DNA of 64,000 nucleotides from Sphingobium boeckii (GTDB lineage Bacteria; Pseudomonadota; Alphaproteobacteria; Sphingomonadales; Sphingomonadaceae), in contig NZ_JACIJC010000001.1 in assembly GCF_014199215.1 (NCBI RefSeq), forward strand, positions 684,001-748,000. Direction: 5' to 3'. The notes beneath the pieces are model-generated. The model saw nothing but the letters and a program-made list of their open reading frames with translations. It was not told the origin of the DNA and ran no database searches. Position 1 is the first letter of the stretch. Each line of letters begins with the position of its first letter. The position numbers and the translations under genes are program-made. This document shows positions 3,799 to 29,127 of the stretch, piece by piece.

Positions 3799-3808
3799 TT
3801 CATTGACC

Positions 3809-13564: not shown

Positions 13565-14211
13565 GCGGTCACGATCATCCGCACGGATGTGGGGTTGAAG
13601 GCGTTGCACGGATTGTTGATCTGCGGGCAATTGGAGACGACCACGATGACGTCCATCTCCGCGCGCAGGTCCACGGTCAGTCCGGGCGCGGAAATGCCGT
13701 CGACGATCCCCAGCGCGCCGTCCGCCTCGACCGGCACGTTCATGAAGAAATTGATGTTGGAGACCATGTCGCGCTTCCCGCGGCCTTCGGTGAGATTGGC
13801 CTCGAGGAAATTCTCGACACAGGCATGTTGCGATTTGGTGTGATGGCCATAACGCAGCGTGTTGGACTCGCAGGAACAGGCGCCGCCAATCGTGTCGTGA
13901 TAGTCGACCGAAGTGGCGGTGATCGTCATCATCGGGCGGCCTTCGTTCGATCGCAGCACCGCGCCGGTGCGCAGGAAGAGATTTTGCTGCGCTGCAACGG
14001 TGTCTTGCGCGCTATAGCGCTCAGCATCGTCGGCGGCCGCATAGAGGAGAAAATCGACCGCCTGGTTGCCTTCCACGTCGACCACACGCAGCGTCTGGCC
14101 GGCGGCGACATGATGGAGCCAGGGCGCGCGAGCGAGAACGATCTCGTCATGGACGACGGCACCGGACAGGCCCGAGAGATGCGGGTCGCCAATATGGGAA
14201 CCAGGGGTCAT
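13561..14211 (-). CDS. Urea carboxylase-associated protein 2 (carboxyguanidine deiminase-type subunit)
   Basis: About 216 residues, DUF1989 family. Known homologues form, with the neighbouring subunit, carboxyguanidine deiminase (CgdAB), which turns carboxyguanidine into allophanate and ammonia. Conserved features include WLHHVAAGQTLRVVDVEGNQAVDFLLY, the CSCESN cysteines, HHTKSQHAC and the closing SNCPQINNPCN. The Cys/His set suggests a metal site. The start at 14211 follows AAAGAGG; an ATG at 14253 would overlap the previous gene by 26 bp. The end overlaps the carboxylase start by 4 bp. Confidence 0.9.
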   Translation of the reverse strand: MTPGSHIGDPHLSGLSGAVVHDEIVLARAPWLHHVAAGQTLRVVDVEGNQAVDFLLYAAADDAERYSAQDTVAAQQNLFLRTGAVLRSNEGRPMMTITATSVDYHDTIGGACSCESNTLRYGHHTKSQHACVENFLEANLTEGRGKRDMVSNINFFMNVPVEADGALGIVDGISAPGLTVDLRAEMDVIVVVSNCPQINNPCNAFNPTSVRMIVTA

Positions 14212-14227
14212 TTCGGCCTCTTTCGTT

Positions 14228-15052: not shown

Positions 15053-15558
15053 GCGGCGACACGCTTGCTGGTCGAACTCCTGCCGGATGCTGCGGTATCA
15101 TTGTTGGCCCGGCCATCCTGCTCGTGCAGCGGCGGGAGCAGCGCGGTGGTGGTAACAAGCTGGATCTGATGGACGCTGCGAATGCTGCGCAGCGCGTCGC
15201 ACAATTCCTTCAGCCGCATCGCCGGCCCCTGCACCAGCAACACTTCAAGCGACTGATCATCCTCCAGAAAGACGTGCTGAGAAGAGATCACTTCCTTGAG
15301 ATAGTCGGCCTGGGTCTGGGCGAGCTGCTGGCGCACCCGGCCACGATCACCGCGATAGACCAGGGTGATCGTTCCCGCGAGCATGGCTTCGGGGCGGGTC
15401 AGCGCCTCATGTTCAGCAAGTGCATGGCGGATCAGTTCTGCAATCAATTGGGATCGGGATGGCAGTCCGCGTTCCTCGACCATCACATCCAATTGACGAA
15501 ACAACTCTGCCGGAAGGCTCATGCTCAGCCGGGCAAGACTGGTAGGTTCGGTACTCAT
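15049..15558 (-). CDS. NikR-like ribbon-helix-helix regulator lacking the nickel site
   Basis: A 169-residue DNA-binding protein. Residues about 9-50 form a ribbon-helix-helix (SMSLPAELFRQLDVMVEERG, then SRSQLIAELIRHAL) and residues about 58-142 an ACT-like NikR C-terminal domain. Ungapped alignment to E. coli NikR from memory gives His76 to Ala84, His87 to His95, His89 to Phe97 and Cys95 to Ser103. Only one of the four square-planar nickel ligands remains, so it probably senses something else. A 27-residue tail extends past the usual end. Its ATG is 17 bp from a TATTAC-N14-GTAATA palindrome, implying autoregulation. It sits inside the guanidine operon, between importer and catabolic genes. 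Confidence 0.85.
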   Translation of the reverse strand: MSTEPTSLARLSMSLPAELFRQLDVMVEERGLPSRSQLIAELIRHALAEHEALTRPEAMLAGTITLVYRGDRGRVRQQLAQTQADYLKEVISSQHVFLEDDQSLEVLLVQGPAMRLKELCDALRSIRSVHQIQLVTTTALLPPLHEQDGRANNDTAASGRSSTSKRVAA

Positions 15559-15570
15559 GCTGCACTCATC

Positions 15571-16353
15571 TCAATTATTACAAATATCGTCAAGTGTAAT
15601 ACTCTTGTCTTTTTCCTTGGGGGGCGAAATACGCTTGGTCAGCGGCAGATCATAGACCGCCGTCGCGCCGAAGCGATGGGGGGCGTGCGGATCGTGGCGG
15701 CGCTTGTCCAATGTAAGCACGCGCGTGCCCAGCGTGAAGGCCTCGCGGATGTCGTGCGTCACCATGACGACGGTCAGGGCATAATCGGTCCACAGCCGGG
15801 TGATCAGCGCGTGCATGTCCGCCTTGATGCCCGGATCGAGCGCGCCGAAGGGCTCGTCGAGCAGCAGGATTCGCGGTCGCTTGATCAGCGCCTGCGCGAT
15901 GGCGAGCCGTTGCTGCATCCCGCCCGACATTTGCGCAGGATAGAGATGCAGACTGTCGCCCAGGCCGACCGCGGCCAGCATGTTTTCGGCCTCCTGCATC
16001 GCGGCGCGGCGGCGCGCGCCGAACAATCTCGCGGTGAAGGGTGCCTGCGCGCATTCCAGCCCGAACAGCGTGTTACCTAATACGGACAGATGCGGGAACA
16101 CCGAATAGCGCTGGAACACCACTCCACGATCCGGCCCGCATTCGGGCTTGAGCGGAATGCCGTCGAGCAGGATCGATCCGCGCGTCGGCGTTTCCTGGCC
16201 CAGAATGATGCGCAGCAGGCTGCTCTTGCCGGCACCCGAGGGGCCGATGATCGAGACGAAGGAGCCTGCCGCAATCTCCAAGCTTACCCGTTCCAGCACC
16301 ACCTTGTCGCCATATTCGACCCAGATATTGTTCAGGCTCAGCAGCGCGCTCAA
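15571..16353 (-). CDS. ABC transporter ATP-binding protein (guanidine/urea-type importer)
   Basis: A 260-residue cytoplasmic ATPase of the TauB/SsuB type. Walker A is GPSGAGKSS, the signature is MSGGMQQRLAIAQAL, Walker B is ILLLDEPFGALD and the switch His is in MVTHD. No ATG precedes the conserved start; the proposed TTG at 16353 overlaps the permease stop (TTGA), mirroring the 4-bp overlaps elsewhere in this operon. The last codons coincide with the operator in front of the regulator gene. Confidence 0.92.
   Translation of the reverse strand: MSALLSLNNIWVEYGDKVVLERVSLEIAAGSFVSIIGPSGAGKSSLLRIILGQETPTRGSILLDGIPLKPECGPDRGVVFQRYSVFPHLSVLGNTLFGLECAQAPFTARLFGARRRAAMQEAENMLAAVGLGDSLHLYPAQMSGGMQQRLAIAQALIKRPRILLLDEPFGALDPGIKADMHALITRLWTDYALTVVMVTHDIREAFTLGTRVLTLDKRRHDPHAPHRFGATAVYDLPLTKRISPPKEKDKSITLDDICNN
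15576..15601. promoter_or_regulatory. Palindromic operator, TATTAC-N14-GTAATA (site upstream of NikR-like gene)
   Basis: TATTAC at 15576-15581 and GTAATA at 15596-15601, separated by 14 bp. An extra base pair extends each arm to 7 bp. The site is 17 bp upstream of the NikR-like ATG and overlaps the last codons of the ABC ATPase gene. On the minus strand a TTGACG hexamer (complement of 15588-15593) lies inside the spacer and could be a -35 element, so binding would repress. The 14-bp spacing is of the kind described for NikR-type palindromes. Confidence 0.8.
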
Positions 16354-17165
16354 TGGTTGGCTCCATGCGCCCAAGGGAAGAGCCTGCGGCTGGTCCAGCT
16401 CAGCATCAGGTCGATCACGATCGCCAGCAATGCGATCCAGGCGACATAGGGCAGGATGATGTCCATCGAAAGATAACGGCGCACCAGGAAAATGCGATAG
16501 CCCAAGCCGATATCGGAGGCGATCGCCTCGGCCGAAATCAGGAATACCCAGGCCGGGCCGAGCGACAGACGCACCGCCTGGATCAGGCGCGGCATCGCCT
16601 GGGGCAGCGCCACGCGCAGCATCAATTGCCAACTGCTCGCGCCTAATGTCTGAGCCTTGGCGATCTGCTCGCGCGGCAGCGCGGTGATGTGCGCAGCCAC
16701 GTCGCGGATCATGAAGGGCGCGATGCCGATGAAGATCAGCATGACTTTGGAGGTTTCGCCCAGCCCGAAGGCGATGAACAGGATCGGCAGGAGGGCGATC
16801 GGCGGGATGACCGCGATCCCCGTCACCAGCGGGCCGAAAGTCGCCCGCACCGGGGGGAGGACGCCCAGCAGCAGGCCCACCAGCAAGGCGGAGAGGGTGG
16901 ACACGCCGAGGCCCAGACCAAGGCGTTGCAGGCTGGCGAACGTATCCGCCCAGAAGATCAGCGTGCCGCTGAGCGGGTCCGGTTGAAACAGCAGCGCCGC
17001 CATCGCTTCAGCCATGCCGCTCGGCAACGGCAGGATCTTGTCGCTGGGATTGGCCGCATGGCGGCCGGCCGCCGCAACGAGATAGACCAAAGCCAGCAGC
17101 AGGATCGGCAGGGCGCCAAGCAGAATGCTGTTTCCCCGGCCGATGCGGCGGTTTACCCAGCGCAT
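16350..17165 (-). CDS. ABC transporter permease (TauC/SsuC type)
   Basis: A 271-residue inner-membrane permease with about six hydrophobic segments and a cytoplasmic EAA-like loop (LPREQIAKAQTLGASSWQLMLRVALPQAMP). It belongs to the taurine/sulfonate/nitrate permease group. With the lipoprotein binding protein 30 bp upstream and the ATPase overlapping downstream it forms the importer that accompanies guanidine/urea carboxylase operons. Confidence 0.92.
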   Translation of the reverse strand: MRWVNRRIGRGNSILLGALPILLLALVYLVAAAGRHAANPSDKILPLPSGMAEAMAALLFQPDPLSGTLIFWADTFASLQRLGLGLGVSTLSALLVGLLLGVLPPVRATFGPLVTGIAVIPPIALLPILFIAFGLGETSKVMLIFIGIAPFMIRDVAAHITALPREQIAKAQTLGASSWQLMLRVALPQAMPRLIQAVRLSLGPAWVFLISAEAIASDIGLGYRIFLVRRYLSMDIILPYVAWIALLAIVIDLMLSWTSRRLFPWAHGANH

Positions 17166-17195
17166 CGCGTGCTGTCCTCGCTGCGACCGATCGCC

Positions 17196-18281
17196 TCAGA
17201 GCGTCCCATCGGCGGCCATCTGCATATAGCTGGCGTCGAAGCGCAGGGTTACATGATCGGCATCGCCGAGCGTCTTGTTGCCGGGGAAGGACATGCCGAC
17301 CACATCGGCCGATTTCGCACCCTGGCCGAAGAGACCTTTGGAGAAGCTGAAATCGCGCACGCGGGTCATGGTGGAGAGGAGTGCCGGGGCGGATGTGGCC
17401 GCCACCGCCGCCTTGGGATCGGCATAGAGAAAGGTGGTAGCCAATTGCCCGTCGAACATCTCCGGCGTGCTCCCCGCGAGCTTGGCCATGGCGGCACGCG
17501 CCGCCTTGCCCTGCGCATCCTGGCGCTGCATCAGTGCGGTGGTCTCATACCAGATGCCGGCCAGCGCCTTGCCCAGATTGGGATTGGCCTTGAGCGTCGC
17601 GGTATCGACCACGAGCAGGTCGAGAATCTCGCCGGGAATGTCGGCTGAACTGAATACCATCTTGGCACCTGGCACACCCTTCATGACCGAAAGCTGCGGA
17701 TTCCAGGTTACGGCGGCGGTGACGTCGGGCGCGGCGAAGGCACCGACGATATCCGCATCCGACGTGTTGACCGTCTTCACGTCCGTCATCGCCATGCCGG
17801 CGCGCTCCAGCGCGCGGGCGAGCAGATAATGGGAGACGGAAAGCTCGACGAGATAGATCTGCCTGCCCTTGATCGCGGCCAGCGTGTCCGCATTTTTCAG
17901 CACGATCCCGTCATTGCCGTTGGAATAGTCGCCCACGATGATCGCGCTGGTATCCTTGCCGCCTGCCGCGGGAATGGTGAGCGCATCCATATTGGCGACC
18001 GTCACGCCATCGAATTTGCCGGCGGTATATTGGTTCACCGATTCGACGTAATCGTTCACTTGGACGATATCGATCTTGATCCCGTATTTGTCGGCCCATT
18101 TCTTCACGATCCCAGCCTGCTCGGCATAGGGCCAAGGCATCCAGCCCGCATAGATCGACCAGCCGATGCTGAATTCGGTGCGCGGTTCTGGTGCCGTGTT
18201 CGATGAAGGCGCGCAGGATGCTCCGATAAGCGTGCACGCCATGAGCGCGAGGCGGCGCGCGCTGCGGATCCAGTTGAACAT
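17196..18281 (-). CDS. ABC transporter substrate-binding lipoprotein (carboxylase-region type)
   Basis: A 361-residue periplasmic binding protein of the NMT1/SsuA fold, first gene of the operon. The ATG at 18281 is preceded by AAAGGGG. The N-terminus MFNWIRSARRLALMACTLIGASC ends in a lipobox (IGASC), so it should be anchored as a lipoprotein. The FSIGWSIYAGWMPWPYAEQAGIVKKWADKYG opening is typical of the binding protein linked to urea/guanidine carboxylase. The promoter region contains a TATTAC-N14-GTAATA palindrome 61 bp from the start, shared with the divergent gene. Ligand is inferred as guanidine or a relative. Confidence 0.9.
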   Translation of the reverse strand: MFNWIRSARRLALMACTLIGASCAPSSNTAPEPRTEFSIGWSIYAGWMPWPYAEQAGIVKKWADKYGIKIDIVQVNDYVESVNQYTAGKFDGVTVANMDALTIPAAGGKDTSAIIVGDYSNGNDGIVLKNADTLAAIKGRQIYLVELSVSHYLLARALERAGMAMTDVKTVNTSDADIVGAFAAPDVTAAVTWNPQLSVMKGVPGAKMVFSSADIPGEILDLLVVDTATLKANPNLGKALAGIWYETTALMQRQDAQGKAARAAMAKLAGSTPEMFDGQLATTFLYADPKAAVAATSAPALLSTMTRVRDFSFSKGLFGQGAKSADVVGMSFPGNKTLGDADHVTLRFDASYMQMAADGTL

Positions 18282-18341
18282 GATTCGAACCCCTTTCGCG
18301 CTGCAGCATTGCCGCAAAGCATTGTCTTGTCCATGGCCGAT

Positions 18342-18367
18342 TATTACTATTGCGGGAATTGGTAATA
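18342..18367. promoter_or_regulatory. Palindromic operator in divergent promoter (TATTAC-N14-GTAATA)
   Basis: TATTAC at 18342-18347 and GTAATA at 18362-18367, a perfect copy of the motif. It sits almost exactly in the middle of the 151-bp divergent region, 60 bp from the importer lipoprotein ATG and 65 bp from the metallo-beta-lactamase-fold ATG, so one bound dimer or tetramer could control both directions. Its flanks (ATTATTACT and GTAATATCAAT) are identical to those of the 21680 site. No guanidine-I (ykkC) riboswitch consensus was found in this leader. Confidence 0.8.
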
Positions 18368-18432
18368 TCAATATTATGCCGTTGGTGCCGTCCGGCTCAG
18401 GCCGCTTCAGCGTCTCTTTTCGGGAGAATACT

Positions 18433-19521
18433 ATGGTGCAGAGCGCGACGCCCACCCCCGCACGACCAGGCATCGCGCCGTCGCCAAAGGGGCGCACTTT
18501 TCCGAACGGAAACCCCGAACTGGGATATAATCCCTCCGGCGTCCGCAACACCGACAGCGCCATACCGCTGCACCGCAGCAAGCCGGTGATCCACGATTAT
18601 GCCTGCGAAGGCCCGGCCCCGGGCAATCTTGGCTTCCGCTGGACCTATGGCTCCAACGTCGCCGCCAAGAATCGCGATCCGCGCGTGCAGGTGGTGCAAT
18701 ATAATGAAGACAGCTTCGTGCTGCGCCAGAATGTCTGCGTGCATTGGGAAGCGCCCTTCACCTATCTGCTGTTTGGCAATACGGGCGCGTTGCTCATCGA
18801 TAGCGGCGCGACCGCGCGCGGTGATCACTATCCGCTGCGCGAGACGGTTGACGCGATCATCACGCGATGGGCGCAGGCGCGTGGACGGAGCAGAATTCCC
18901 CTGACCGTCGCGCTGACATCCGGTGAGGATGTCGCGCAAAACCAGGGGCTGGTGCAGTTTGCAGGACGGCGAGATACCGTTATCGTCCCGCGGCCGCTGG
19001 AGGTGATGAAGCGTTTCTACGGCCTCGGGAAAAGCTGGCCATCGGACACGGGGAAGATCGATCTCGGCGATCGCGTGATCGATGTGATCCCGACCCCGGG
19101 CACGCACAAGGACGGTGTGAGCTTTTACGATCCCTATTGCGACTTTCTCTTCACCGGCGACCTTCTGTTTCCCGGCAAGATCAACATCGGCAACGATCGC
19201 GATTTCATCGCATCGCTTGAGCGGCTCAAGGCTTTTGCGGCCGCCCATCCCGTAAAATGGCTTCTCGGCGGTCATGTGGAAATGATGTTCGTGCCCGGAA
19301 AATACTATCCACGTTTCGCAAATTACAAACCCTATGAGCGCGTGCTGGAGATGGCGCCCGAACTGATCGACGAGGCGATCCAATATGCCCGTGAGGTGCA
19401 GGGCAGAGACATGATGCTCATCCGGCCCGATTTTGCGCTGTTCAACGGGGTCAGCCCTGATCAGCGAACGCAGGCCTGGCCCGCGGGCGTGCCCAAGATC
19501 AATCCGCCGCATCCCTTCTGA
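18433..19521 (+). CDS. Metallo-beta-lactamase-fold protein with lost HxHxDH motif
   Basis: A 362-residue MBL-fold protein. The ATG at 18433 follows GGGAG; a longer frame to 18166 would run through the operator and the opposite gene's start and is rejected. It aligns along its length with the next gene (LRQN...EAPF...FGN; TGDLLF with TGDMFY; GGHVE with GCHVE). Where the neighbour has HLHDDH this one has SGEDVA (163-168), so four of the usual ligands are Ser, Glu, Val and Ala. His in GTHKDG, Asp in FTGD and His in GGHVE remain. No signal peptide is visible. It may be a non-catalytic partner or a one-metal enzyme. First gene of a three-gene operon. Confidence 0.82.
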   Translation: MVQSATPTPARPGIAPSPKGRTFPNGNPELGYNPSGVRNTDSAIPLHRSKPVIHDYACEGPAPGNLGFRWTYGSNVAAKNRDPRVQVVQYNEDSFVLRQNVCVHWEAPFTYLLFGNTGALLIDSGATARGDHYPLRETVDAIITRWAQARGRSRIPLTVALTSGEDVAQNQGLVQFAGRRDTVIVPRPLEVMKRFYGLGKSWPSDTGKIDLGDRVIDVIPTPGTHKDGVSFYDPYCDFLFTGDLLFPGKINIGNDRDFIASLERLKAFAAAHPVKWLLGGHVEMMFVPGKYYPRFANYKPYERVLEMAPELIDEAIQYAREVQGRDMMLIRPDFALFNGVSPDQRTQAWPAGVPKINPPHPF

Positions 19522-19538
19522 CGATAAGGAGAGCTTCC

Positions 19539-20552
19539 ATGGATCGTCGTACTTTTCTGTCCTATAATGCCGCGGCAGCCGCCATTCCTCTGTCGGGCGG
19601 GATGCTTGCCGGCCTGGCTGATACGGCGTCGGCGGCGGCCCGTCCGGTGGCGGTCGATTTCAAAAGCGATCTTCCCGCGAAGGGCAGTTTCCCCAAAAAA
19701 TGGATCTGCGGCTCATCTTCTTGCATGGACAATGAGGATCCGGCGATCCAGGTCCATTGGTATAATCCGCACACCGCGATTTTGCGGCAAAACAAAGCCT
19801 ATAGTTACGAAGCACCGTTCGCCCCGCTCTATTTCGGCAATGATCGCGTATTGCTGCTCGACGAAGGTTATGTGCAGTTGCGCAACGACTATGATCTGCG
19901 CGGCGTCGTTGACCAGTGCATAGAGGATTGGTGCGCGCGCAATGGCCGTGATCCATCCAGCATGGAGTTGCTGGTGGCGTTCAGCCATCTGCATGATGAT
20001 CATTATGCCGCGACCAACCAGTTCGCGGACCGCCCCAATACGCGCTATATGGGCCTCACTCATGAGGAGATGGTCGGCTTTTGGGGGATGACCAAATTCC
20101 CCGAAGAGCGGGTGACCCTCGATCTGGGCGGCCGCGACATATTGATCTGGGGTTCGCCCGGGCATGTCGTCTCGGAATTCGCTTATTACGACAGCTACAC
20201 CCAGATTTTATATACCGGCGACATGTTCTATCGCGGGCGTTGTTACATCAGCTTCTGGGAACCCTGGTTCGACAGCATGAAGCGGCTGATCGATTTTTGC
20301 GACACCCATCCGGTGACGCATGTGATGGGTTGCCATGTGGAGATCAGCAGGGATGGCGAGGACTATGCCTATGGCATGACCTGGCAGCCCGATGAGGCAC
20401 CCGTGGAGATGACCGTGCAACAATTGCGCGAGGCCTTCGCCTTTGCGCAGACGATCACCAAGCCCGGCATCTATTTCACGGGCACCGTCTTCCTCTGCAA
20501 TCAGACACGCAGCATGACGACGATCGACAAGAACCCGTATCGTTACAGTTGA
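19539..20552 (+). CDS. Tat-exported metallo-beta-lactamase-fold hydrolase
   Basis: A 337-residue hydrolase with an intact dinuclear site: His150, His152, Asp154, His155 (SHLHDDH), then His in SPGHVVSE, Asp in YTGDMFY and His in MGCHVE. The N-terminus MDRRTFLSYNAAAAA is a twin-arginine signal ending near ASAAA, so a folded, metal-loaded enzyme would be exported to the periplasm. It lies 17 bp after its degenerate paralogue with an AAGGAG ribosome site. Substrate class (lactone, ester, amide or phosphoester) cannot be told. Confidence 0.88.
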   Translation: MDRRTFLSYNAAAAAIPLSGGMLAGLADTASAAARPVAVDFKSDLPAKGSFPKKWICGSSSCMDNEDPAIQVHWYNPHTAILRQNKAYSYEAPFAPLYFGNDRVLLLDEGYVQLRNDYDLRGVVDQCIEDWCARNGRDPSSMELLVAFSHLHDDHYAATNQFADRPNTRYMGLTHEEMVGFWGMTKFPEERVTLDLGGRDILIWGSPGHVVSEFAYYDSYTQILYTGDMFYRGRCYISFWEPWFDSMKRLIDFCDTHPVTHVMGCHVEISRDGEDYAYGMTWQPDEAPVEMTVQQLREAFAFAQTITKPGIYFTGTVFLCNQTRSMTTIDKNPYRYS

Positions 20553-20583
20553 AACGCCGCATTATCAGAGTGGGAGTGAGCGC

Positions 20584-21504
20584 ATGAAACGGTCCGTTGG
20601 TTTGCCATTGATGTTCGCCATGCTGTGCGCCGCATCCGCACCGGACCCGGCTGCACTGCGCGAACAGGCCTTCGATGTGCCGGGTTTTGCAGATTTCCTG
20701 GCGGTCGACGGTGATACGGTGTGGGCCACCAATGACGGCCGAGTCGAACAATGGTCGATCAAAGGCAAACTGGCGTCCGTTGCGGTGCCCAAGCCCTGCG
20801 GTGCGATGGCGGTGGCCTATGGCTCGCTCTGGGTCGCCAATTGCAAGGACGGCAATCTTTACCGGATCGATGTGAAGACAGCCAAGGTGCAGGCGATCAT
20901 CGCGACGGGTATCGCCAATCCCAAGGGCGAGACCAATGTCGTTGCGGGCGCTGGGTCGATTTGGGTGCCCAGCGACGGGGCGGGAAAGATTGCCCGGATA
21001 GACCCGGCAAACAACAAGATGTCGGCTGCGATCGTGGTTGATCCGGGCACCTTCTATCTGGCCTTCGGGTTTGACGCGCTATGGGCGGTCAGCAGTGACG
21101 AACAGTCTCTTCAGAAAATCGATCCGCAGACGGATACGGTGGTGAACAAGGTGAAATTGGGCAAGCAGCCCGGCTTTCTCGCTGCGGGCGAAGGCGCGGT
21201 CTGGGTGCAGGAGCAGCGCGACGGCACTGTGGCGCGGATCGATCCGCACACCGCCGCCGTGTCCGGGCGCGTCACGGTCGGAAAGACCCTGATTTATGGC
21301 GATATCGACGTGGGCGGCGGGAAGGTGTGGCTCCGCACGACGGAGGATCAGACATTTGTCGCCATCAATCCGGCATCGATGGAAATTCTCGGGCGTTTGG
21401 GCAAGCCGTCAGGCAGCGGTGCGTTGCGTTACACCGCGTCCGGCATCTGGACGTCCGCGCATGATGTGAAGACCTTATCCTGGTGGAGTGCCTCGGAAGA
21501 CTGA
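20584..21504 (+). CDS. Periplasmic beta-propeller protein (YncE/Vgb-like repeats)
   Basis: A 306-residue protein with a short signal peptide (to about residue 20) and six or seven repeats of the form GSLWVAN...GNLYRIDVKTAKV, GSIWVPS...GKIARIDPANNKM, AVWVQE...GTVARIDPHTAAV. Such NHL/PQQ-type propellers are binding or scaffold proteins; some are lyases, but no catalytic residues can be assigned here. It follows the Tat hydrolase by 31 bp and is probably the third gene of the same operon. A GC stem (about 21510-21528) follows the stop without a T-run. Confidence 0.75.
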   Translation: MKRSVGLPLMFAMLCAASAPDPAALREQAFDVPGFADFLAVDGDTVWATNDGRVEQWSIKGKLASVAVPKPCGAMAVAYGSLWVANCKDGNLYRIDVKTAKVQAIIATGIANPKGETNVVAGAGSIWVPSDGAGKIARIDPANNKMSAAIVVDPGTFYLAFGFDALWAVSSDEQSLQKIDPQTDTVVNKVKLGKQPGFLAAGEGAVWVQEQRDGTVARIDPHTAAVSGRVTVGKTLIYGDIDVGGGKVWLRTTEDQTFVAINPASMEILGRLGKPSGSGALRYTASGIWTSAHDVKTLSWWSASED

Positions 21505-21679
21505 GCGGCCCGGCCAGATTTCGGCCGGTGGATGACGAATCGGCGCACGACTCGATCCCCACGTTCGCAGCCAGGGACTTTGAACGCGCGACATGGCGAA
21601 ACCCGGTTTCATCCCTTGACGGGAAGGGCAGTTTTACGCGCTTCTGCACATTTTCGGATCATATGAGATCGGTCAGCAT

Positions 21680-21705
21680 TATTACTCTTGACGCATTATG
21701 TAATA
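21680..21705. promoter_or_regulatory. Palindromic operator upstream of hydroxylase 1 (TATTAC-N14-GTAATA)
   Basis: Perfect copy: TATTAC at 21680-21685 and GTAATA at 21700-21705. A TTGACG hexamer at 21688-21693 lies within the spacer, as in the site before the regulator gene, and is a candidate -35 element. The site is 97 bp upstream of the proposed ATG (21802). It implies that hydroxylase 1, and perhaps the TonB receptor behind it, is in the same regulon as the guanidine operon. Confidence 0.8.
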
Positions 21706-21801
21706 TCAATAGCCTGTGTCACATCGCCTAGTAGAGCGACATCACCATGGGAGAGGATCGAACACGTTGGGCCAGTCGCTGGCTTGATATGGGAGATTTC
21801 G

Positions 21802-22734
21802 ATGGATCAACCGCATGGCTATGGCGCAGGCGACTTGGGGGGGAGCACCTTCAAGGATGCCGTGTTCAATCTGGTGCCGCCCGCGACCATCGCCGTCGTG
21901 ATGCTGTTCTGGGCATTCGGTCCGGCGGAATGGATCAAGAGCCCATGGTCTATCGTGGTTGCAGGCGCGCTCACCTCGGCCTTCATCCAGGGGCTTGAAT
22001 GGGTGCATGAGCGGCACGCCGGCTGGCGCATCGACAGGCGTGAATTAGCGACGGATCTCTTCTATGTGATCCTGGGCAATACGGCGATCGGCTGGGCCAC
22101 CGCCACGCTGGCCGAGGCTCCGCTTACGGCGATGAAGCAATCGCTCGGCATCACCACCGCATGGGCAATGCAGATGCCGTTCGTGCTTCAAGTGCTGTTC
22201 GTCATTGTCCTCATCGAGTTCGGCCAATATTGGATGCACCGGCTGATGCACGGCAACGCCTTCTTCTGGGCGACCCACGCGCCGCATCATCATATCACGC
22301 AGCTTAATGCCATGAAGGGTTTCGTGGGGAATCCGGTGGAGCTTTTTCTCATCAGCCTCAGCGTGGTCGCGCTGTTCGATCTGCCGCAAGCGGCCTTATT
22401 CTGCGCTTTCAACGTGATGGGGGTGATCTCCGGTTTCGCCCACGCCAATGTGAGGTCCGATCCGCCGCGCTGGTATGCCTTCTTCTTCACCACGATCCGG
22501 CACCACAGTCTCCATCATTCGGTGGGATATGAAGACACCCGCTGCAATTACGGAAATTCGCTCATCCTGTGCGATCGGATCTTCGGCACCTATCGCGAAG
22601 GAGAAGCCTCGATCGTCGGCCAGGACGATCGCAAGAGGCTCTCCATCTGGGAGCAGACGATCTTTCCGGTCCGCCCTTTGATCGAGAAATTCAGGGAAAA
22701 AAAGCAGGCCAGATCAATGGCCGCAATCAACTGA
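21802..22734 (+). CDS. Sterol desaturase/fatty acid hydroxylase-family membrane di-iron enzyme 1
   Basis: A 310-residue integral membrane oxygenase. The His clusters that bind the two irons are visible: HRLMH (146-150), HAPHHH (159-164) and HHSLHH near 230. Several membrane segments precede and separate them. The ATG at 21802 has GGGAG six bases upstream; an upstream in-frame ATG at 21688 would start inside the operator. Members hydroxylate or desaturate C-H bonds of sterols, carotenoids or lipids; the substrate here is unknown. A paralogue lies at 27783-28787 with its own operator copy. The next gene, a TonB receptor, is 181 bp downstream. Confidence 0.85.
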   Translation: MDQPHGYGAGDLGGSTFKDAVFNLVPPATIAVVMLFWAFGPAEWIKSPWSIVVAGALTSAFIQGLEWVHERHAGWRIDRRELATDLFYVILGNTAIGWATATLAEAPLTAMKQSLGITTAWAMQMPFVLQVLFVIVLIEFGQYWMHRLMHGNAFFWATHAPHHHITQLNAMKGFVGNPVELFLISLSVVALFDLPQAALFCAFNVMGVISGFAHANVRSDPPRWYAFFFTTIRHHSLHHSVGYEDTRCNYGNSLILCDRIFGTYREGEASIVGQDDRKRLSIWEQTIFPVRPLIEKFREKKQARSMAAIN

Positions 22735-22915
22735 TTCAAGGCATCAGATATCAGGTCTCGACGAGTTCTGGAGCGTCGAGCGGCAAGCGCGTCAGCCAAT
22801 AATCCGGAAAACCGGCGGCAGGCGCAGCGCGCAATATTTTCAATAGCAGACGCTCGGGCGCTGGCAGGGACACCTCCGGCGCACGGGGGAGATTTAACCA
22901 AAAAAGGGGAAGTTC

Positions 22916-25339
22916 ATGTCACGTCGCGCGAAACTCAAATTGGGGCTTTTGTCTGCCACCATTTTTACGAATATGGTCGCGATGACACCGGCCATGGCGG
23001 AAGCGCCTGTAGAGGCCGAAGCGGAGGGCGATTCCATCATCGTCACCGGCACGCGCCGCATCACGACGATCATGGATAGCCCGATCAATATCTCCGCGGT
23101 CAGTGCCGAAGACATGGCACGCCAGCGCATTCAGGATGTGCGCGATCTTGCGGATTTCACGCCCGGCCTGACCATTTCGGACACCGGCCCCGGCACCACC
23201 GGCACGGTCGTGCTCCGTGGTCTCAGCGCCTCGGACGTGGATTCCAGCGGCAGCAATTATGACGATTCGGTCGGGGTCTATCTGGGCGAGGTTCCGCTCT
23301 ATTACGATTTCAAGCTGCTCGATATCGAACGGGTGGAAACGCTGCTCGGGCCGCAGGGTACGCTTTACGGTCTGGGCACGCTGGCCGGTGCGATCCGTTA
23401 CATTCCAAACCGCCCCGACGTCGAAAAATTCGAGGGCGAAGTCCATGGCAGCTTTTATGGCAAGAGCCACGGCAGCAAGCCTGGTTATCAGATGGACGCG
23501 GTCATCAACATTCCGATCGCCAAGGACCATATAGCGTTCCGGTCGGCCACGGGTTATTATTACGATCCCGGCTTCATCGATTATACGCTGCTGATCCAGG
23601 AGCCCGGCGTGTCGCTGCCGCAGCCGGCCGGTTCGACCACTATTTCTGACAGCTTCCGTGCGGCCAACCTTACAAGCCGCAAGGATCTGAACTTCGAAAA
23701 GACGATCACGACGCGCAATCAGTTGCTATTCCAGGTGGACGAGGATTTCTCCGCGACCGTCACCTACGCATTCCAGCAGACCAAGACCGATGGTGCCCAG
23801 TCCAATGGTGCCGGTGTTTTCGGGACGGGGAAATATGAGAATGCCAGCCGCTATATCGAACCCGTGAAACGCCGCGCGCACCTGGTCAGTCTCGAAATCA
23901 ACGCCAATGTGTTCAACATCGCCGATCTGGTGGCGACGACGGCCTATACCGACGTCAAATCGGATTCGCAGGGCGACAATACCGATCTGCTGCTCGATCT
24001 CGATTATGATTATGAGCTGTTCCCGGCCTTCTCAAGCTGGAGCGAGAGCCACACCCGGCGCAAGCAATATAATCAGGAAGTCCGCCTCGTCTCAAGCCAT
24101 GGGGGGCCGTTCAGTTGGTCGATCGGCGGCTTTTACAATGAGAATAAATATGGCAGCGACTATGCCGAACATATCCCCAATCATCCGTGGGCCGATGCCG
24201 CAACGAACCCGGATTATCTCGAATATGTCAGCTATACCCGCTCGAAGGTGACCGAACAGGCCATTTTCGGCGAAGGATCATTCCATATCACGCCGGACTG
24301 GCAGGTCACCGGCGGCGCGCGTTACTTCAAATATACCTCCACCATCGCCGGTGCGCAGACACTGCCGATCCTTGGCGATCCGCTCGACCCACGTGACCTG
24401 ACGCCACGCGGCGGCGATGCCGGCAAGAACGGAACGGTGTGGAAAATCAACAGCTCCTACAAATTCACCGATGGCCTGATGGCCTATGCGACCTACAGCA
24501 AGGGCTATCGCATCGGCGGCCCCAACAGCGTCGCGCCATGCCCCACCCCGCTGCCAAACGATCCAGATGGCGACAACATCAATAATACCCAGCTCATCTG
24601 CGCTCTGCCGAACGAGATTCAGTTCGGACCGGACAGCACCAAGAACATCGAAATCGGCATCCGCTCGCAGTTGTTCGATCGCAAGCTGAGCTTCAGTTTC
24701 AACGTCTTCCAGATCAAGTGGCAGGGGCTTCAGGTCGATTCCGCCACGCTGAACGGCATTGCCGGCATCACGGTGAACGGCGGTGGTGCCGAGTCCAAGG
24801 GCTTCGAATCGTCGTTTCAGTTGAGGCCGCTGGCCGGGCTGTCCATCCAGGGCACCTATTCCTACACCGATGCCAAGTTGACCGACGATGTACCTGGCAT
24901 CATCCCGGTCAACGATCCGCCGGGCACCTATCCCAGCGCGCCGATCACGCTGGCCGCGCTTTCGGGTGATCGCCTGCCGGGTTCGACGAAGAACAGCGGC
25001 AGCCTTGGCGCGGCCTACACCATGCCGCTGATGGCAGGTTCACTGACGGCCAACTGGACGGCGACCTATCGGGGAAGCGTTGTCACGCGGCTTGGCTGGG
25101 ATCGCGCCTATGGCGACAAGCTGCCCAGCTTTGTGATGCACCGGGCGTCGCTGAGCTATGACGCGGGTCAATACAGTGTCAGCCTGTTTGCGAACAACAT
25201 CTTCGACAAATATGCGGTCGTGTCCGTGTCCAACGACCGGTCCCGCACAGGCCTCAACGACGGCGTTCTTCTGCGCTATTATCAGAAAGCCGTCGCCAAC
25301 CCGCGCACCTTCGGCGTCGACGTGCGCTTCAAATATTGA
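22916..25339 (+). CDS. TonB-dependent outer-membrane receptor (regulon module)
   Basis: An 807-residue receptor with a signal peptide ending near AMAEA, a TonB box (DSIIVTGTRR), a plug domain (LRGLSASDVDSSGSN, LGPQGTLYGLGTLAGAIRYI) and a barrel ending in VDVRFKY. The ribosome site GGGGAAG precedes the ATG. There is no copy of the palindromic operator in the 181 bp upstream, so it is either read through from hydroxylase 1 or separately controlled. It suggests that the module acts on a solute too large for porins. Confidence 0.92.
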   Translation: MSRRAKLKLGLLSATIFTNMVAMTPAMAEAPVEAEAEGDSIIVTGTRRITTIMDSPINISAVSAEDMARQRIQDVRDLADFTPGLTISDTGPGTTGTVVLRGLSASDVDSSGSNYDDSVGVYLGEVPLYYDFKLLDIERVETLLGPQGTLYGLGTLAGAIRYIPNRPDVEKFEGEVHGSFYGKSHGSKPGYQMDAVINIPIAKDHIAFRSATGYYYDPGFIDYTLLIQEPGVSLPQPAGSTTISDSFRAANLTSRKDLNFEKTITTRNQLLFQVDEDFSATVTYAFQQTKTDGAQSNGAGVFGTGKYENASRYIEPVKRRAHLVSLEINANVFNIADLVATTAYTDVKSDSQGDNTDLLLDLDYDYELFPAFSSWSESHTRRKQYNQEVRLVSSHGGPFSWSIGGFYNENKYGSDYAEHIPNHPWADAATNPDYLEYVSYTRSKVTEQAIFGEGSFHITPDWQVTGGARYFKYTSTIAGAQTLPILGDPLDPRDLTPRGGDAGKNGTVWKINSSYKFTDGLMAYATYSKGYRIGGPNSVAPCPTPLPNDPDGDNINNTQLICALPNEIQFGPDSTKNIEIGIRSQLFDRKLSFSFNVFQIKWQGLQVDSATLNGIAGITVNGGGAESKGFESSFQLRPLAGLSIQGTYSYTDAKLTDDVPGIIPVNDPPGTYPSAPITLAALSGDRLPGSTKNSGSLGAAYTMPLMAGSLTANWTATYRGSVVTRLGWDRAYGDKLPSFVMHRASLSYDAGQYSVSLFANNIFDKYAVVSVSNDRSRTGLNDGVLLRYYQKAVANPRTFGVDVRFKY

Positions 25340-25347
25340 GGATGAGA

Positions 25348-25385
25348 GGAAAGGGCGCCGCTCCGGAAGGAAGGGCGCCCTTTCC
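25348..25385. terminator. Bidirectional stem-loop terminator between convergent genes
   Basis: Perfect 12-bp arms, GGAAAGGGCGCC (25348-25359) and GGCGCCCTTTCC (25374-25385), with a 14-base loop. It lies between the convergent TonB receptor and sulfotransferase genes. T-runs are short, so efficiency is uncertain. Confidence 0.7.
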
Positions 25386-25396
25386 ACCACTGACCG

Positions 25397-26965
25397 TCAG
25401 CGTGTTTGAATGCCTTGCGCTTCCAGCCAGGCTCGCGTTGGCTCCAATGCCTCGGCATGAGATCGCCATTTGCCGACGGCATCGGCATTGATCGGCCGTC
25501 GCACCTGCGCGGCGCTGGGCGTCGCAACGGCGGCGCTATTTTCGTGGAACGACAGGCAGGCTTCGTCCCATTCGAGGCCGCAATGCTCCAGCAGCCGCCG
25601 CGTCTGCCCTTCCTGATCGGCGACCAGCGCTTCATAGGATAGCTGAAGCACCCGCCCCGGCCAGAGGCTTTCCCACAAGGCCATCAGCCGGTCAAAGCGC
25701 GCATAGTAGCGCGCCGTATCCATCAGATCGTAGGAATAGGCATAATAAGCCGACTGGCTGGCGAATAGATTTTTGTAATTGCTCCAGACGGTATCCATCG
25801 GGTTCCGCCGCAGGCAGACGATCCGGGCGTTGGGCAAGGCCCGTGCGATATGGCCGATATAAAGGAAGTTGGCCGGCAGCTTGTCCGTGAACCGTGCCAT
25901 GCCTTGGGGGCGGTGGTGGCTGGCGCGTTCGAGATAGGCGGTGCCGATGGCGGCGGGATCGATGGTGCCGCTGGCCGCCACGGTTGCGGGGTCGATGACC
26001 ACGCGGGAGGCGGTGCCGGCCAGTTTCTTGACCGACAGCGGCACGGCCTGAAGTTCGCCCGCTGACCCGACATCGCGGTGGGATGACAGGATGCGATCGA
26101 CCAGAGTGGTGCCCGTGCGGGGCATTCCCACCACGAAAATCGGGGCCGGATCGGCATTGCCCGTCCCGGTGGCAAGCGCGCTCGCGCCGCTGCCAAACAG
26201 CGTCTCGATCGCGTCGAATATCGCGGCGTCCTGCGCGAAATCATAGCGAATCGTTTGCTTGTGCGCGGCATTGGCGACCGACAGGTGTCGAAAGGCATCG
26301 GGCGCATTCCCGATGTCTTCCAATTCCTTGGCCAGGGCATAATGAATGCGCAGCGAATCCTCGGGTCGGCGTGTTTGCGCCAATGCGGTTTGCAGTCTGG
26401 GCACATGATTGGCCTGGGCCGTTTGGCGCGAGAGGATGGCAAGCGCATAATGCACGCGCGCGTTGCCGGGGTCTGCGGCCAGGATCATCTCATAATGCGC
26501 GCGCGCCTCGGCCACCCGGCCGGTGAAGCCGCTGGCCGCCGCGAGATTGTAGCGATAATTCAGATTGCCGGGATCAGCGGCTACCGCTGCGGTGAACGGC
26601 ACGACCGATGTTTCATGGTCTCCGAGCCGGGCCAGAACGCATCCGATGGTATCGAGCGTGAGGGCATCGACGGGGGCCAGCGCCATGGCCTCACGCGCGG
26701 CCTTGGCGGCTTGCCCATCGCGCCGCAACAGGCTGAGCAGCCGTGCAAGTTGGGCCAGATGTTCCGCCCGCGGCCCGCGTTCCACCGCGGCCTCGATCAG
26801 CGGAACTGCCTTGGCGATCTGGCCCGCTTCGGCCGCGGCCATGCCCAGCAGGAAGAAGCCCATGGATTGCTCCGGGTGGGCGAGGGTAAGCGCCTTTGCA
26901 GCGGAGACCGCGGCCGGCAGATCACCACGCTTGAGCGCCGCCCTCGCTTGTGCTTCCAGCGTCAC
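25397..26965 (-). CDS. TPR-containing sulfotransferase-family protein
   Basis: About 522 residues: TPR-like repeats (about 1-240: AALKRGDLPAAVSAAKALTLAHPEQ and later copies) followed by a sulfotransferase domain (about 265-515). The PAPS 5'-phosphosulfate loop is FVVGMPRTGTTLVDRILSSH; RNPMDTVWSNYKNLF fits the 3'-phosphate motif. It would transfer sulfate from PAPS to an unknown acceptor. The start is unclear: GTG 26965 opens exactly at the first repeat, while ATG 26995 and 27037 add residues that look non-coding. It may be the last gene of an operon with hydroxylase 2. Confidence 0.82.
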   Translation of the reverse strand: MTLEAQARAALKRGDLPAAVSAAKALTLAHPEQSMGFFLLGMAAAEAGQIAKAVPLIEAAVERGPRAEHLAQLARLLSLLRRDGQAAKAAREAMALAPVDALTLDTIGCVLARLGDHETSVVPFTAAVAADPGNLNYRYNLAAASGFTGRVAEARAHYEMILAADPGNARVHYALAILSRQTAQANHVPRLQTALAQTRRPEDSLRIHYALAKELEDIGNAPDAFRHLSVANAAHKQTIRYDFAQDAAIFDAIETLFGSGASALATGTGNADPAPIFVVGMPRTGTTLVDRILSSHRDVGSAGELQAVPLSVKKLAGTASRVVIDPATVAASGTIDPAAIGTAYLERASHHRPQGMARFTDKLPANFLYIGHIARALPNARIVCLRRNPMDTVWSNYKNLFASQSAYYAYSYDLMDTARYYARFDRLMALWESLWPGRVLQLSYEALVADQEGQTRRLLEHCGLEWDEACLSFHENSAAVATPSAAQVRRPINADAVGKWRSHAEALEPTRAWLEAQGIQTR

Positions 26966-27052
26966 GCAATGCCCGCGGTGAGGTGGACCACGCATGTCGC
27001 TGTGAGAGAGACGATTTCGCGCAAAAATGTCTCCCATGCGCGACAGCGCCGA

Positions 27053-27655
27053 TTATGAGCCCAGCAAGCTCTTTTTGAACAGCGCCTTGATCCACCTGGC
27101 TTCGAAAATGCGTCCCACGCCATAGAGCGTGGCAAAGATCGCTGCAAAGACATAGGCGGGTGTGGGAGAGGGTTTCTTGTCCTCGTCCTTATCCTTGTCT
27201 TTCTTTTTGGGCTTGTCGGGTGCGGGCGCGCCGAGGGCTTTGTCGATCGGGTTCATGGGCAGTTCCGCTTTCTTCTTTTCGGGCTTTTTCTTCGCGGCTT
27301 CTGTGGAGGGTTTTTCCAGATTGCCGATGGCGATGGTCAGTTGCGCGAAGCCCAGAAACAGCAAGGGTGCCAGAAAGCAGAACAGCAATCCCCGGCTGAT
27401 CAGATCATAGCGCATCACAGGCCCGGCCTCGCCCTTGTCGATCTGCAGTACACCTCCGTCGAAAATGGCCATCTTGTCCTGCGCCGCCTGGTCTTTCTTG
27501 CTGAAGGTCAGCGTGTCGTCCGTCCGTTCGTGATGGGTGTTCCTCTCGCGAAACAGAGGGTCGAGCCGCGCGAAGGCGTCATCGCCCGATTGCCCGGGTG
27601 CCAGCGCCAGGCTGCCCCTGACATGCCAGATCCAGTCGATGAAACGCAGGTTCAC
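27053..27655 (-). CDS. Unknown small membrane protein with Lys-rich linker
   Basis: A 200-residue protein I do not recognise. The GTG at 27655 is supported by AAGGAG seven bases upstream. A cytoplasmic-looking N-terminal domain (FIDWIWHVRGSLAL opening) is followed by a hydrophobic segment (about 87-109), a highly charged Lys/Asp/Pro linker (about 115-165) and a second short hydrophobic segment (AYVFAAIFATLYGVG). It lies between hydroxylase 2 and the sulfotransferase on the same strand, so it may belong to the regulon. No function assigned. Confidence 0.7.
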   Translation of the reverse strand: MNLRFIDWIWHVRGSLALAPGQSGDDAFARLDPLFRERNTHHERTDDTLTFSKKDQAAQDKMAIFDGGVLQIDKGEAGPVMRYDLISRGLLFCFLAPLLFLGFAQLTIAIGNLEKPSTEAAKKKPEKKKAELPMNPIDKALGAPAPDKPKKKDKDKDEDKKPSPTPAYVFAAIFATLYGVGRIFEARWIKALFKKSLLGS

Positions 27656-27782
27656 AGGATCTCCTTCGAAGAGAGATTTTCGAGGCCGCACTGGACGGCA
27701 AGGCCTAAGCCGGCGCACTGACGGCGACCCCGTTCAGGGCAGGGAGTATGAGGAAAGGGCGGGTGTGCGACCGGCGATGGCC

Positions 27783-28787
27783 TCACTCGGCCGGAACCGC
27801 CGTCGCGCCCTCGGATGGGTCCAGGTGACCCTTGCCAAATCGTCCCTTGATGGACTTCCAGCCTTCGGTGAAGGGATAGAGCATCGTCTCGGCGACCGAC
27901 ATGCGGCGTCCGCCCTCCATCCCGAGCAGTTCCGCCTCGCCATCCACACAGGTGCCGAACATGCGATCGATGATGATCCAGGTTCCGGAATAATTGCTGC
28001 GGGTGGCTTCATAATCCTGCGAATGATGAACGCTGTGATGCTCGGTGGTGTTGAACAGGAACCGCCACCATTTTGGCGAATTGAAGCGGACATTGATATG
28101 CTGATAGGTTCCGACAGCCAGGCCGAGGGTGCCGGCGAGCAGGGCTGCGCGCGGCAGAAAGTCAAAGAATCCGCCGATGCCGAGGCCGATCAGGAAAAGC
28201 TCGACCGGATTGCCGACCGCGCCTTTGTTGATGTTGAGCTGGGTAATGTAGTGATGCGGCGCGTGGGTCAGCCACAGTGGGTACCAATTGTGCATCCCGC
28301 GGTGCATCCAATATTGCCCGAAATCGAAGACGAACGAGATCAGGAAAGCCTGCACCAGCAGCGGCAAAACCGTGAACCAGGCGAATTTGTCCCAGTTGAA
28401 AGACTGCTGGACGGCTTCGATCATGGCACCGTCGCCGATATAGCTGTCGACCATGCGGAGCACCGTGTAGCCAAGCCCGACATAGAACAGGTCGGTGGTC
28501 AGTTCCTTCCAGGTCAGGCGCCAGCTATCGTGGCGCGGGACGAGCCATTCGAGCCCCAACATGAGCAGCTTGAACCCGATGCCGATGCCGATGGCGGTCG
28601 ATGTCACGGCGATGGAATTGGGTGCGTAATACCAGAAAGCGAGCAATGCGAAGAGCACGGCGGGCTGGAACCAGGTGAAAAAGAGCTGCTTGGCCCGGCC
28701 GCCTTCCACCTTGGGAATGTTCTCCCAGCCCACGGTTACCGGCGCCTGTGTGCCGATCATCCTGTTACCTACGCGAACTCCATCCAT
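27783..28787 (-). CDS. Sterol desaturase/fatty acid hydroxylase-family membrane di-iron enzyme 2
   Basis: A 334-residue paralogue of the enzyme at 21802. Shared blocks include FGQYWMHRGMH, THAPHHYITQLN, KGAVGNPVELFLI and HHSVHHSQDYEATRSNY, so the full di-iron His set is present, with about five membrane segments. The ATG at 28787 has GGGGA upstream; ATG 28760 is an alternative. An operator copy lies 37 bp upstream. Two related hydroxylases in one regulon suggest either consecutive oxidations or two related substrates. Confidence 0.85.
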   Translation of the reverse strand: MDGVRVGNRMIGTQAPVTVGWENIPKVEGGRAKQLFFTWFQPAVLFALLAFWYYAPNSIAVTSTAIGIGIGFKLLMLGLEWLVPRHDSWRLTWKELTTDLFYVGLGYTVLRMVDSYIGDGAMIEAVQQSFNWDKFAWFTVLPLLVQAFLISFVFDFGQYWMHRGMHNWYPLWLTHAPHHYITQLNINKGAVGNPVELFLIGLGIGGFFDFLPRAALLAGTLGLAVGTYQHINVRFNSPKWWRFLFNTTEHHSVHHSQDYEATRSNYSGTWIIIDRMFGTCVDGEAELLGMEGGRRMSVAETMLYPFTEGWKSIKGRFGKGHLDPSEGATAVPAE

Positions 28788-29127
28788 ATCGCCCGTCCCC
28801 GCAATGTTTGGTCGCCGATTCCAGTAATACCAATTTGCATGATCGTAATATCATTGCACCCCCTTTGTCTACACGATTTGGTAGACGTGGCCTCCGTTCC
28901 GAAAGGGCGGTGTGCGCAGGCAAACGGAAAGCTCGGTTCAGAGGGCCGGTTTGGTCTGATGGACAGCGCAAGACTTGAGCAACGTGCGCAGATTTTCACC
29001 GCGCTATCAGCGCGTCATTCCACTGCGCGTTCGCAAAAACGTATCAAATGATCCGCTGCGCAGCGATGGACGGGAAATGGACGCACCAGGCATCGCGAAC
29101 GATATCGACCAGGAACAGTGATATTTT
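28788..29127. promoter_or_regulatory. Intergenic region with second palindrome, GTCTAC-N8-GTAGAC
   Basis: 340 bp between hydroxylase 2 and tRNA-Glu. Besides the operator at 28825, it holds a perfect inverted repeat GTCTAC (28867-28872), 8-bp spacer, GTAGAC (28881-28886), 16 bp from the operator. This has the size of a dimeric regulator site. A related half, CGGTAGACA, occurs near 6590 upstream of the organosulfur operon. From 28890 to 29127 I see no gene. Confidence 0.5.
28825..28850. promoter_or_regulatory. Palindromic operator upstream of hydroxylase 2 (one mismatch)
   Basis: TAATAC at 28825-28830 and GTAATA at 28845-28850, spacer 14 bp. One base differs from the perfect TATTAC arm. The flank GTAATATCA matches the 18342 and 21680 sites. 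The site is 37 bp upstream of the hydroxylase 2 ATG, where binding would overlap the promoter. Confidence 0.72.

Follow-up and report, generated by a model that had tools for sequence, protein, structure and literature searches.

Which protein reads a palindrome that recurs among the guanidine genes of Sphingobium boeckii, and what do the genes behind it have in common? The question arises in a 64,000-nucleotide stretch of contig NZ_JACIJC010000001.1 (hereafter, the window), where TATTAC-N14-GTAATA stands beside genes for a NikR-like ribbon-helix-helix (RHH) protein, a urea/guanidine ATP-binding cassette (ABC) importer with its substrate-binding protein (SBP), and a carboxylase pathway including UAAP1 and UAAP2. 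It also precedes an accessory module encoding two metallo-beta-lactamase (MBL)-fold proteins (MBL1 and MBL2), a beta-propeller protein, two membrane di-iron hydroxylases (FAH1 and FAH2), and a TonB-dependent receptor. The sites, their conservation and co-occurrence, the gene content, and the loss of metal ligands described below were all established in silico, where the regulon passed every test applied and, like its proposed binder, has good support. The best explanation as a whole, considered probable with real room for doubt, is that a repressor that descends from NikR and responds to a guanidino compound controls import, the carboxylase pathway, and the accessory module.

The preliminary description of this DNA had counted three perfect palindromes and one copy with a single mismatch, and no others in the window; a pattern search returned precisely these (Table 1). 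With up to three mismatches allowed, 13 matches were obtained against 2.48 expected, a number reached in 0 of 100 shuffles, and the nine matches besides the operators each carry two or three mismatches. The gap between operator and start codon measures 17 bp for the NikR-like gene, about 60 bp for SBP, 65 bp for MBL1, 96 bp for FAH1, and 37 bp for FAH2, within the 17-97 bp given earlier. The sites had been called intergenic or terminal to a gene, which holds with one refinement, as operator 1 falls within the final codons, and hence the 3' end, of the gene for the ATPase (stop at 15571). The conserved flank and the TTGACG spacer motif that had been pointed out were also recognized on re-reading the sites: GTAATATCA is common to the operators at 18342, 21680, and 28825 (+ strand), and TTGACG is found in the spacers of those at 15576 (- strand) and 21680 (+ strand). 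The genome-wide search suggested earlier was carried out on 4,031,522 bases. Up to two mismatches, it gave 25 operator matches versus 104 for a reversed control pattern; places with two mismatches are, therefore, uninformative, and weight is given to closer matches alone. Allowing a single mismatch at most leaves the four operators of the window and one more site (C3:592143), where the spacer is rich in GC and two mechanical open frames overlap the match.

The preliminary description had also proposed phylogenetic footprinting of orthologous loci. When named genomes were scanned for the NikR-like protein, 204 relatives emerged, the best 80 of which constitute loci L016-L095; we take their titles to be those of sphingomonad genera or metagenome-assembled genomes, except for L079. 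The latter is titled Candidatus Poribacteria, yet holds a sphingomonad cluster much like that of L078 (Croceicoccus), and is probably a misbinned contig. The operator is kept in 80/80 loci, totaling 232 sites with at most one mismatch, of which 148 are exact, with at least one exact site in every locus and at least two sites in 78 of the 80. The exact arms are separated by 14 bp in all 148 cases, and none were found at other spacers from 4 to 25 bp. Shuffled arms, searched in the same loci with at most one mismatch in 12 draws (11 different), yielded 0-1 matches, with one draw reaching 13, against 232 for the operator. The start of a module gene (a homologue of a window gene) is present within 400 bp of 228 of the 232 sites. 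When a site between divergent genes is counted for both flanking genes, the right-hand gene is SBP at 102 sites and the NikR-like gene at 75, and the left-hand gene is MBL1 at 35 and the TonB receptor at 27, which bears out the tentative inclusion of that receptor in the regulon. FAH1 flanks 43 sites (on either side), the propeller gene 12, and FAH2 11. The FAH1-side sites mostly carry one mismatch, with 6/54 exact in a count where FAH1 and FAH2 hits overlap.

The distribution of the regulator gene points to the binder. Of 199 family genomes, 28 gave a match to the NikR-like protein; identity was at least 65% in 25 of them and 22-24% in the other three. The exact operator is present in 22 of the 25 genomes with the regulator (at least 65%) versus 3 of the 174 without it, although, the genomes being related, these counts are not independent and their Fisher p-values ignore phylogeny, which weighs against taking them at face value. 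The reversed control pattern occurs in 2/25 and 20/174, respectively. The three misses among regulator-bearing genomes belong to one genus (g35), and the two inspected both have a one-mismatch site at the same junction. Four exact sites occur in the three regulator-free genomes. The DNA around the three inspected has a GC content of 42-45%; two of these sites fall within a frame that looks isocitrate-dehydrogenase-like (icd-like), and one adjoins an unrelated frame. The NikR-like protein is, thus, very probably the regulator of this regulon, as had been supposed from its position beside one site. The two-arm layout earlier attributed to NikR-family operators matches the deltaproteobacterial NikR consensus predicted in PMC545781 (GTGTTAC-N13/14-GTAACAC), which has the same geometry.

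Relatives outside the family extend this association. Among 385 genomes of the class, one clear NikR-like relative was detected, in a genome of another family (G478, 43% identity), and 150 genomes of the order of G478 provided two more regulators (G579 and G686), 62-64% identical to that of G478. In a tree, for which long-branch warnings were issued, sphingomonad and outgroup regulators form a 100/100 branch versus 22 other NikR-family rows. In G478 (locus L237), GTATTAC-N14-GTACTAC, with one mismatch, lies between the NikR-like gene and that of SBP, after which come the genes for a permease, an ATPase, UAAP1, UAAP2, and the carboxylase. A guanidine-II riboswitch (16530-16579, + strand; 46.6 bits versus a gathering threshold of 32) is found directly upstream of UAAP1, and ties the NikR-like clade to guanidine independently. 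This cluster harbors two kinds of control, a riboswitch and a NikR-like gene with its operator. In G686 (L259), an exact GTATTAC-N14-GTAATAC is located between the NikR-like and SBP genes, near permease and ATPase genes, with no UAAP match within the fetched stretch. Frames that look creatininase-like are found near the NikR-like genes of L237 (13594-15836) and L258 (10421-11188, in G579); a presumably type III glutamine synthetase-like frame also lies in the former interval, and not in L258. A covariation between residue 12 of the RHH beta-strand (S/T) and operator base 5 was considered and dropped, as T occurs both with GTATTAC (L259) and with GTATGAC (L258).

What the regulon handles can be read from its central genes. 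UAAP1 and UAAP2 of the window are taken to be the carboxyguanidine deiminase named in the title of PMC8184117. Their presence favours guanidine over urea as the carboxylase substrate. UAAP1 scores over its cut-off in 30/199 family genomes, that is, in 25/25 genomes with the regulator and in five of the 174 others (G028, G029, G061, G139, and G189), from which the exact operator is absent. In the three read of those five, a LysR-type frame is situated upstream of SBP (G028, L217 8663-9601, this one scanned against family models; G061, L222 2140-3192; G189, L223 13028-13963), so that a LysR-type gene apparently replaces the NikR-like regulator in these guanidine clusters. No guanidine riboswitch was found in the window, where an Rfam scan gave just a tRNA, and neither RF01068 nor RF00442 was matched in the source genome (G000). 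Across the family, guanidine-I riboswitches were matched in 0/199 genomes and guanidine-II in 3/199, none of them among the 25 regulator genomes, with strict filters that may lose weak matches; other guanidine riboswitch classes were covered, as far as Rfam has them, by scanning the window and 14 loci against all of Rfam. The three guanidine-II genomes (G107, G168, and G067), two of which are from the genus of the window, lack a NikR-like gene, and in none of them does UAAP1 exceed its cut-off.

Table 1. Operators, genes, and putative promoters of the regulon (positions in the window).
Feature	Position	Strand	Remarks
Operator 1	15576..15601	-	Exact; before NikR-like gene; TTGACG in spacer on - strand
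Operator 2	18342..18367	.	Exact; between divergent SBP (-) and MBL1 (+)
Operator 3	21680..21705	+	Exact; before FAH1-TonB receptor
Operator 4	28825..28850	-	One mismatch; before FAH2
NikR-like RHH regulator	15049..15558	-	Pfam RHH_1 + NikR_C; nickel ligands largely lost
UAAP1, carboxyguanidine deiminase subunit (DUF1989)	14228..15052	-	TIGR03425, 310.7 bits (cut-off 205.95)
UAAP2, carboxyguanidine deiminase subunit (DUF1989)	13561..14217	-	TIGR03424, 330 bits (cut-off 284.7); start approximate
Urea/guanidine carboxylase	9983..13564	-	TIGR02712, 1746.1 bits (cut-off 1303.85); match alone cannot separate urea from guanidine
Allophanate hydrolase-like amidase (presumed)	8220..9986	-	Open reading frame, conserved beside carboxylase
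ABC transporter ATPase	15571..16380	-	PF00005; start approximate
ABC transporter permease	16350..17165	-	PF00528
SBP of urea/guanidine ABC importer	17196..18281	-	TIGR03427, 541.7 bits (cut-off 333.9); start approximate
MBL1, MBL-fold protein	18433..19521	+	PF00753; no HxHxDH, TSGEDxAQ-type instead
MBL2, MBL-fold hydrolase	19539..20552	+	PF00753; motif HLHDDH
Beta-propeller protein (PROP)	20584..21504	+	PF21959, TIGR02276; signal-peptide-like N terminus by eye
FAH1, membrane di-iron hydroxylase	21802..22734	+	PF04116; His boxes HRLMH, HAPHH, HHSLH
TonB-dependent receptor (TBDR)	22916..25339	+	PF00593/PF07715; downstream of FAH1
Tetratricopeptide repeat (TPR)-sulfotransferase	25397..27037	-	PF13469 + TPR; downstream of FAH2-HYP27
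HYP27	27053..27655	-	No Pfam or NCBIfam family; start approximate; downstream of FAH2
FAH2, membrane di-iron hydroxylase	27783..28787	-	PF04116; His boxes HRGMH, HAPHH, HHSVH
Putative MBL1 promoter	18350..18377	+	-35 TTGCGG 18350-18355, -10 TATTAT 18372-18377, 16-bp spacing; overlaps operator 2
Putative FAH1 promoter	21688..21715	+	-35 TTGACG 21688-21693, -10-like TAGCCT 21710-21715

Beyond the amidase, the window contains frames (1424-6238) that seem to encode a TauD-like dioxygenase, a major facilitator superfamily-like transporter, and a further TonB receptor, with no operator of at most one mismatch.

The placement of the operators gives an indication of how the regulator would act. The MBL1-side consensus over 35 sites reads TTGc ... 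TATgaT. Sites next to FAH1 and MBL1 have, within the spacer, a conserved TTGAC or TTGc that is followed 16 bp later by TAnnnT, and both the TTGAC and the TAnnnT of the FAH1 side are conserved in relatives. A regulator bound at the operator would cover the -35 element, which fits repression.

Regarding the signal, the NikR-like protein contains the Pfam domains RHH_1 (9.7e-07) and NikR_C (8.7e-21), and its best PDB match is the Pyrococcus horikoshii NikR (PhNikR, 4e-24), with which 127 rows (112 of them distinct, drawn from 106 original sequences) were compared residue by residue. H78, H89, H91, and C97 of PhNikR are taken here as the nickel ligands. At the positions of H78, H91, and C97, the respective His, His, and Cys are missing from 127/127 rows: C97 is replaced by Ser in all, H91 by Phe (112) or Val (15), and H78 mostly by Ala (82). 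The position of H89 stays His in all 127 (H95 here). In the regulator itself, H95, F97, and S103 line what was the nickel pocket of NikR, and E99, D101, and Q102 are close by in the sequence. Residues Q94, E99, S103, and Q110 are invariant, and D101 and Q102 are each kept in 126 rows. The four ligand positions read R-H-H-T in the three outgroup regulators, and HHHC in 14 of 17 other NikR homologues, the remaining ones being GHHC, HSPA, and QAPR (one each). All five NikR models score below their cut-offs, the best being NF003381 (96.2 vs. 105 bits), with TIGR02793 at 59.6 vs. 175.45, and no nickel transport or nickel enzyme gene was detected among the window targets scanned. Compared with the NikR proteins of P. 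horikoshii (2bj1), E. coli (1q5v), and H. pylori (2ca9), the regulator shares the RHH and NikR_C domains and the two-arm operator, but differs by the loss of three of the four ligands, scores below the listed NikR cut-offs, guanidine and accessory targets, and a separate branch. Nickel sensing is disfavoured by the replacement of three of the four ligand residues; judged by its residues, the protein is no nickel sensor; a guanidino compound is its likeliest ligand.

The accessory module accompanies the regulator in many genomes. A propeller orthologue (at least 55%) is present in 21/25 regulator genomes versus 2/174 others, and MBL2 (at least 75%) in 16/25 versus 1/174; among 87 clustered sequences, HYP27 is found in 25 and the TPR-sulfotransferase in 43. 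MBL1 orthologues have no HxHxDH in 32/32 aligned rows and retain later ligand-like residues, which suggests that MBL1 and MBL2 form a catalytic/non-catalytic pair. The predicted structure of MBL2 (mean predicted local distance difference test score of 75) has a generic MBL fold, with the GIM-1, IMP, and BcII lactamases as top matches, and its comparison gave no substrate hint; PDB searches with MBL1, MBL2, and FAH1 returned weak or no matches. In two of the three exceptional genomes, both without the NikR-like gene, module genes are located beside guanidine genes: MBL1, MBL2, and the TonB receptor in G028, and the propeller, FAH1, an MBL-like protein, the TonB receptor, and a sulfotransferase in G029. 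The link between the two gene sets is, therefore, more than a shared operator.

Other oxygenases are also found next to guanidine operons of relatives. In G061 (L222), the operon is flanked by a 2-oxoglutarate (2OG) oxygenase (256-2130), fused to an unassigned N-terminal region and 50% identical to a counterpart in locus L154 (G138), whose top hit in the PDB bears the name ethylene/succinate-forming enzyme (5e-48). In G189 (L223), a luciferase-like protein adjoins the operon. MgdH and MgdL, as described in PMC12508155, demethylate methylguanidine to guanidine and are encoded in a guanidine carboxylase operon. The L222 oxygenase is a candidate MgdH/MgdL-like demethylase. Plant homoarginine-6-hydroxylases, according to PMC11018352, set guanidine free. 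From these precedents, it is proposed that the FAH hydroxylases may release guanidine from alkylguanidines by N-dealkylation. As far as descriptions can be compared, the likeness to MgdH/MgdL is that genes for oxygenases accompany those of guanidine carboxylation and that a guanidine-releasing N-dealkylation is proposed; the difference is that the window encodes membrane di-iron hydroxylases and not a 2OG dioxygenase.

In the scheme that we infer, from operon structure, binding, and repression to ligand and accessory chemistry, a NikR-family RHH protein without a nickel site would bind TATTAC-N14-GTAATA, a two-arm operator overlapping promoter elements. Repression would extend to the operon that encodes it (together with carboxyguanidine deiminase, guanidine carboxylase, and allophanate hydrolase), to the divergent guanidine ABC importer, to the operon of MBL1, MBL2, and the propeller, to FAH1 with the TonB receptor, and to FAH2-HYP27-sulfotransferase. 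Guanidine or a close derivative would bind where NikR holds nickel, and repression would be relieved. The accessory module might then serve as a guanidine supply: the TonB receptor would import an N-alkylated guanidine, and the hydroxylases would hydroxylate the carbon next to the nitrogen, giving a product that would break into guanidine and an aldehyde, perhaps aided by the MBL pair. The more specific version, which joins a guanidine- or alkylguanidine-sensing factor with a converted NikR nickel pocket to TonB uptake of alkylguanidines and a di-iron hydroxylase/MBL route releasing guanidine, is only tentatively put forward. The preliminary description had, conditionally, united the importer, regulator, catabolic enzymes, MBL-fold proteins, propeller, hydroxylases, and perhaps the TonB receptor in one undescribed pathway; co-regulation and co-occurrence of the targets stand in silico, and a single pathway is no more than plausible.

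Several observations weigh against this scheme, and many of them are shared with its strongest competitor, according to which the MBL, propeller, FAH, and TonB genes form a separate pathway, co-regulated because both are needed under one condition of growth, be it nitrogen scavenging or membrane modification, and providing no guanidine. FAH1 and FAH2 have no close characterized relative; the best named one is the ornithine-lipid hydroxylase OlsE, which they resemble distantly (NF052566, 82 and 63 bits vs. 475), and the PDB search with FAH1 gave a chance match alone (E 0.17). In L155, L156, and L237, the sequence fetched around the regulator contains no accessory module, which is, therefore, not needed for guanidine use, and G106, the third exceptional genome, has the propeller and FAH1 with no regulator or UAAP1 match. 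In addition, L154 (4419-14342) contains a paralogous module with a pyrroloquinoline quinone (PQQ) dehydrogenase, a second NikR-like protein (66%), a propeller, the 2OG oxygenase, an FAH protein, and a TonB receptor, in a 15-kb stretch without a TATTAC site of up to two mismatches and without guanidine genes; an open palindrome scan for a shared operator at this module produced noise only. A separate pathway would, however, leave unexplained why module genes remain near guanidine genes in G028 and G029, which have no NikR-like regulator, and why the oxygenases of L222 and L223 adjoin guanidine operons. It is retained as a serious, if less favoured, possibility.

Further difficulties concern the operator itself. 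The regulator site of G579 (L258) has a different arm (GTATGAC-N14-GTCATAC), and no SBP homologue occurs in its fetched stretch. G138 has extra exact sites, one before a TonB receptor and one (L151 7284-7309) near a methionine-aminopeptidase-like frame, away from the guanidine cluster. No evident -10 element was seen downstream of operator 1 at the distance found elsewhere.

A second alternative is that the regulator senses carboxyguanidine, allophanate, urea, a creatinine-like cyclic guanidine, or nitrogen status, guanidine being one substrate only. The urea names carried by TIGR03427 and TIGR02712 would agree with this, as would the frames that look creatininase-like near two outgroup regulators and type III glutamine synthetase-like near one. 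The pocket also differs among clades: E99 and D101 are not conserved in the outgroup regulators, so that the ligand need not be the same throughout the clade. Nevertheless, UAAP1 accompanies the regulator in all 25 genomes and the L237 riboswitch belongs to the guanidine-II family, and this alternative is regarded as unlikely.

A regulator that still senses nickel or another metal through an altered site, with the regulon as a metal-sparing or metal-supply response, is less likely again. Its domains, the PhNikR match, the retained H95, and the metal-dependent families of MBL2 and the hydroxylases are compatible with such a sensor, but three ligands are replaced in every row, whereas most other homologues keep HHHC. 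Moreover, no nickel gene occurs among the scanned targets, the guanidine pathway here proceeds via a biotin carboxylase and not a nickel guanidinase, and the L237 cluster carries a guanidine-II riboswitch. Finally, that the palindromes arose by chance or serve some other regulator, with its gene elsewhere, is very improbable: chance is rejected by the window shuffles, the genome search, the co-occurrence, and the fixed N14 spacer with its shuffled-arm controls, and the site both co-occurs with the NikR-like gene and is kept beside it in two other families.

The preferred explanation, a repressor derived from NikR and answering to a guanidino compound, would set this regulon apart from known systems. 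The carboxylase operons under guanidine-I/II riboswitches of Klebsiella, Raoultella, and Vreelandella, as presented in PMC12186494 and PMC12508155, have the importer, UAAP1/UAAP2, carboxylase, and allophanate hydrolase in common with the window, which differs by its DNA operator and protein control and by the extra MBL, propeller, FAH, and TonB genes. Among the titles and abstract openings listed from the open-licence literature, no NikR-like regulator of guanidine genes was found. A 2025 review (PMC12186494) names guanidine riboswitches as the sole known guanidine receptors besides transporters and enzymes, anticipates that guanidine-binding transcription factors may be found, and calls the natural source of guanidine a major gap. 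The regulon offers a candidate protein sensor for guanidine, a defined operator, and candidate guanidine-releasing genes, which makes the questions of receptor and source testable. It also suggests that a metalloregulator family can change its ligand while its operator architecture stays. If true, this would be a protein guanidine sensor in bacteria whose guanidine genes have no guanidine riboswitches.

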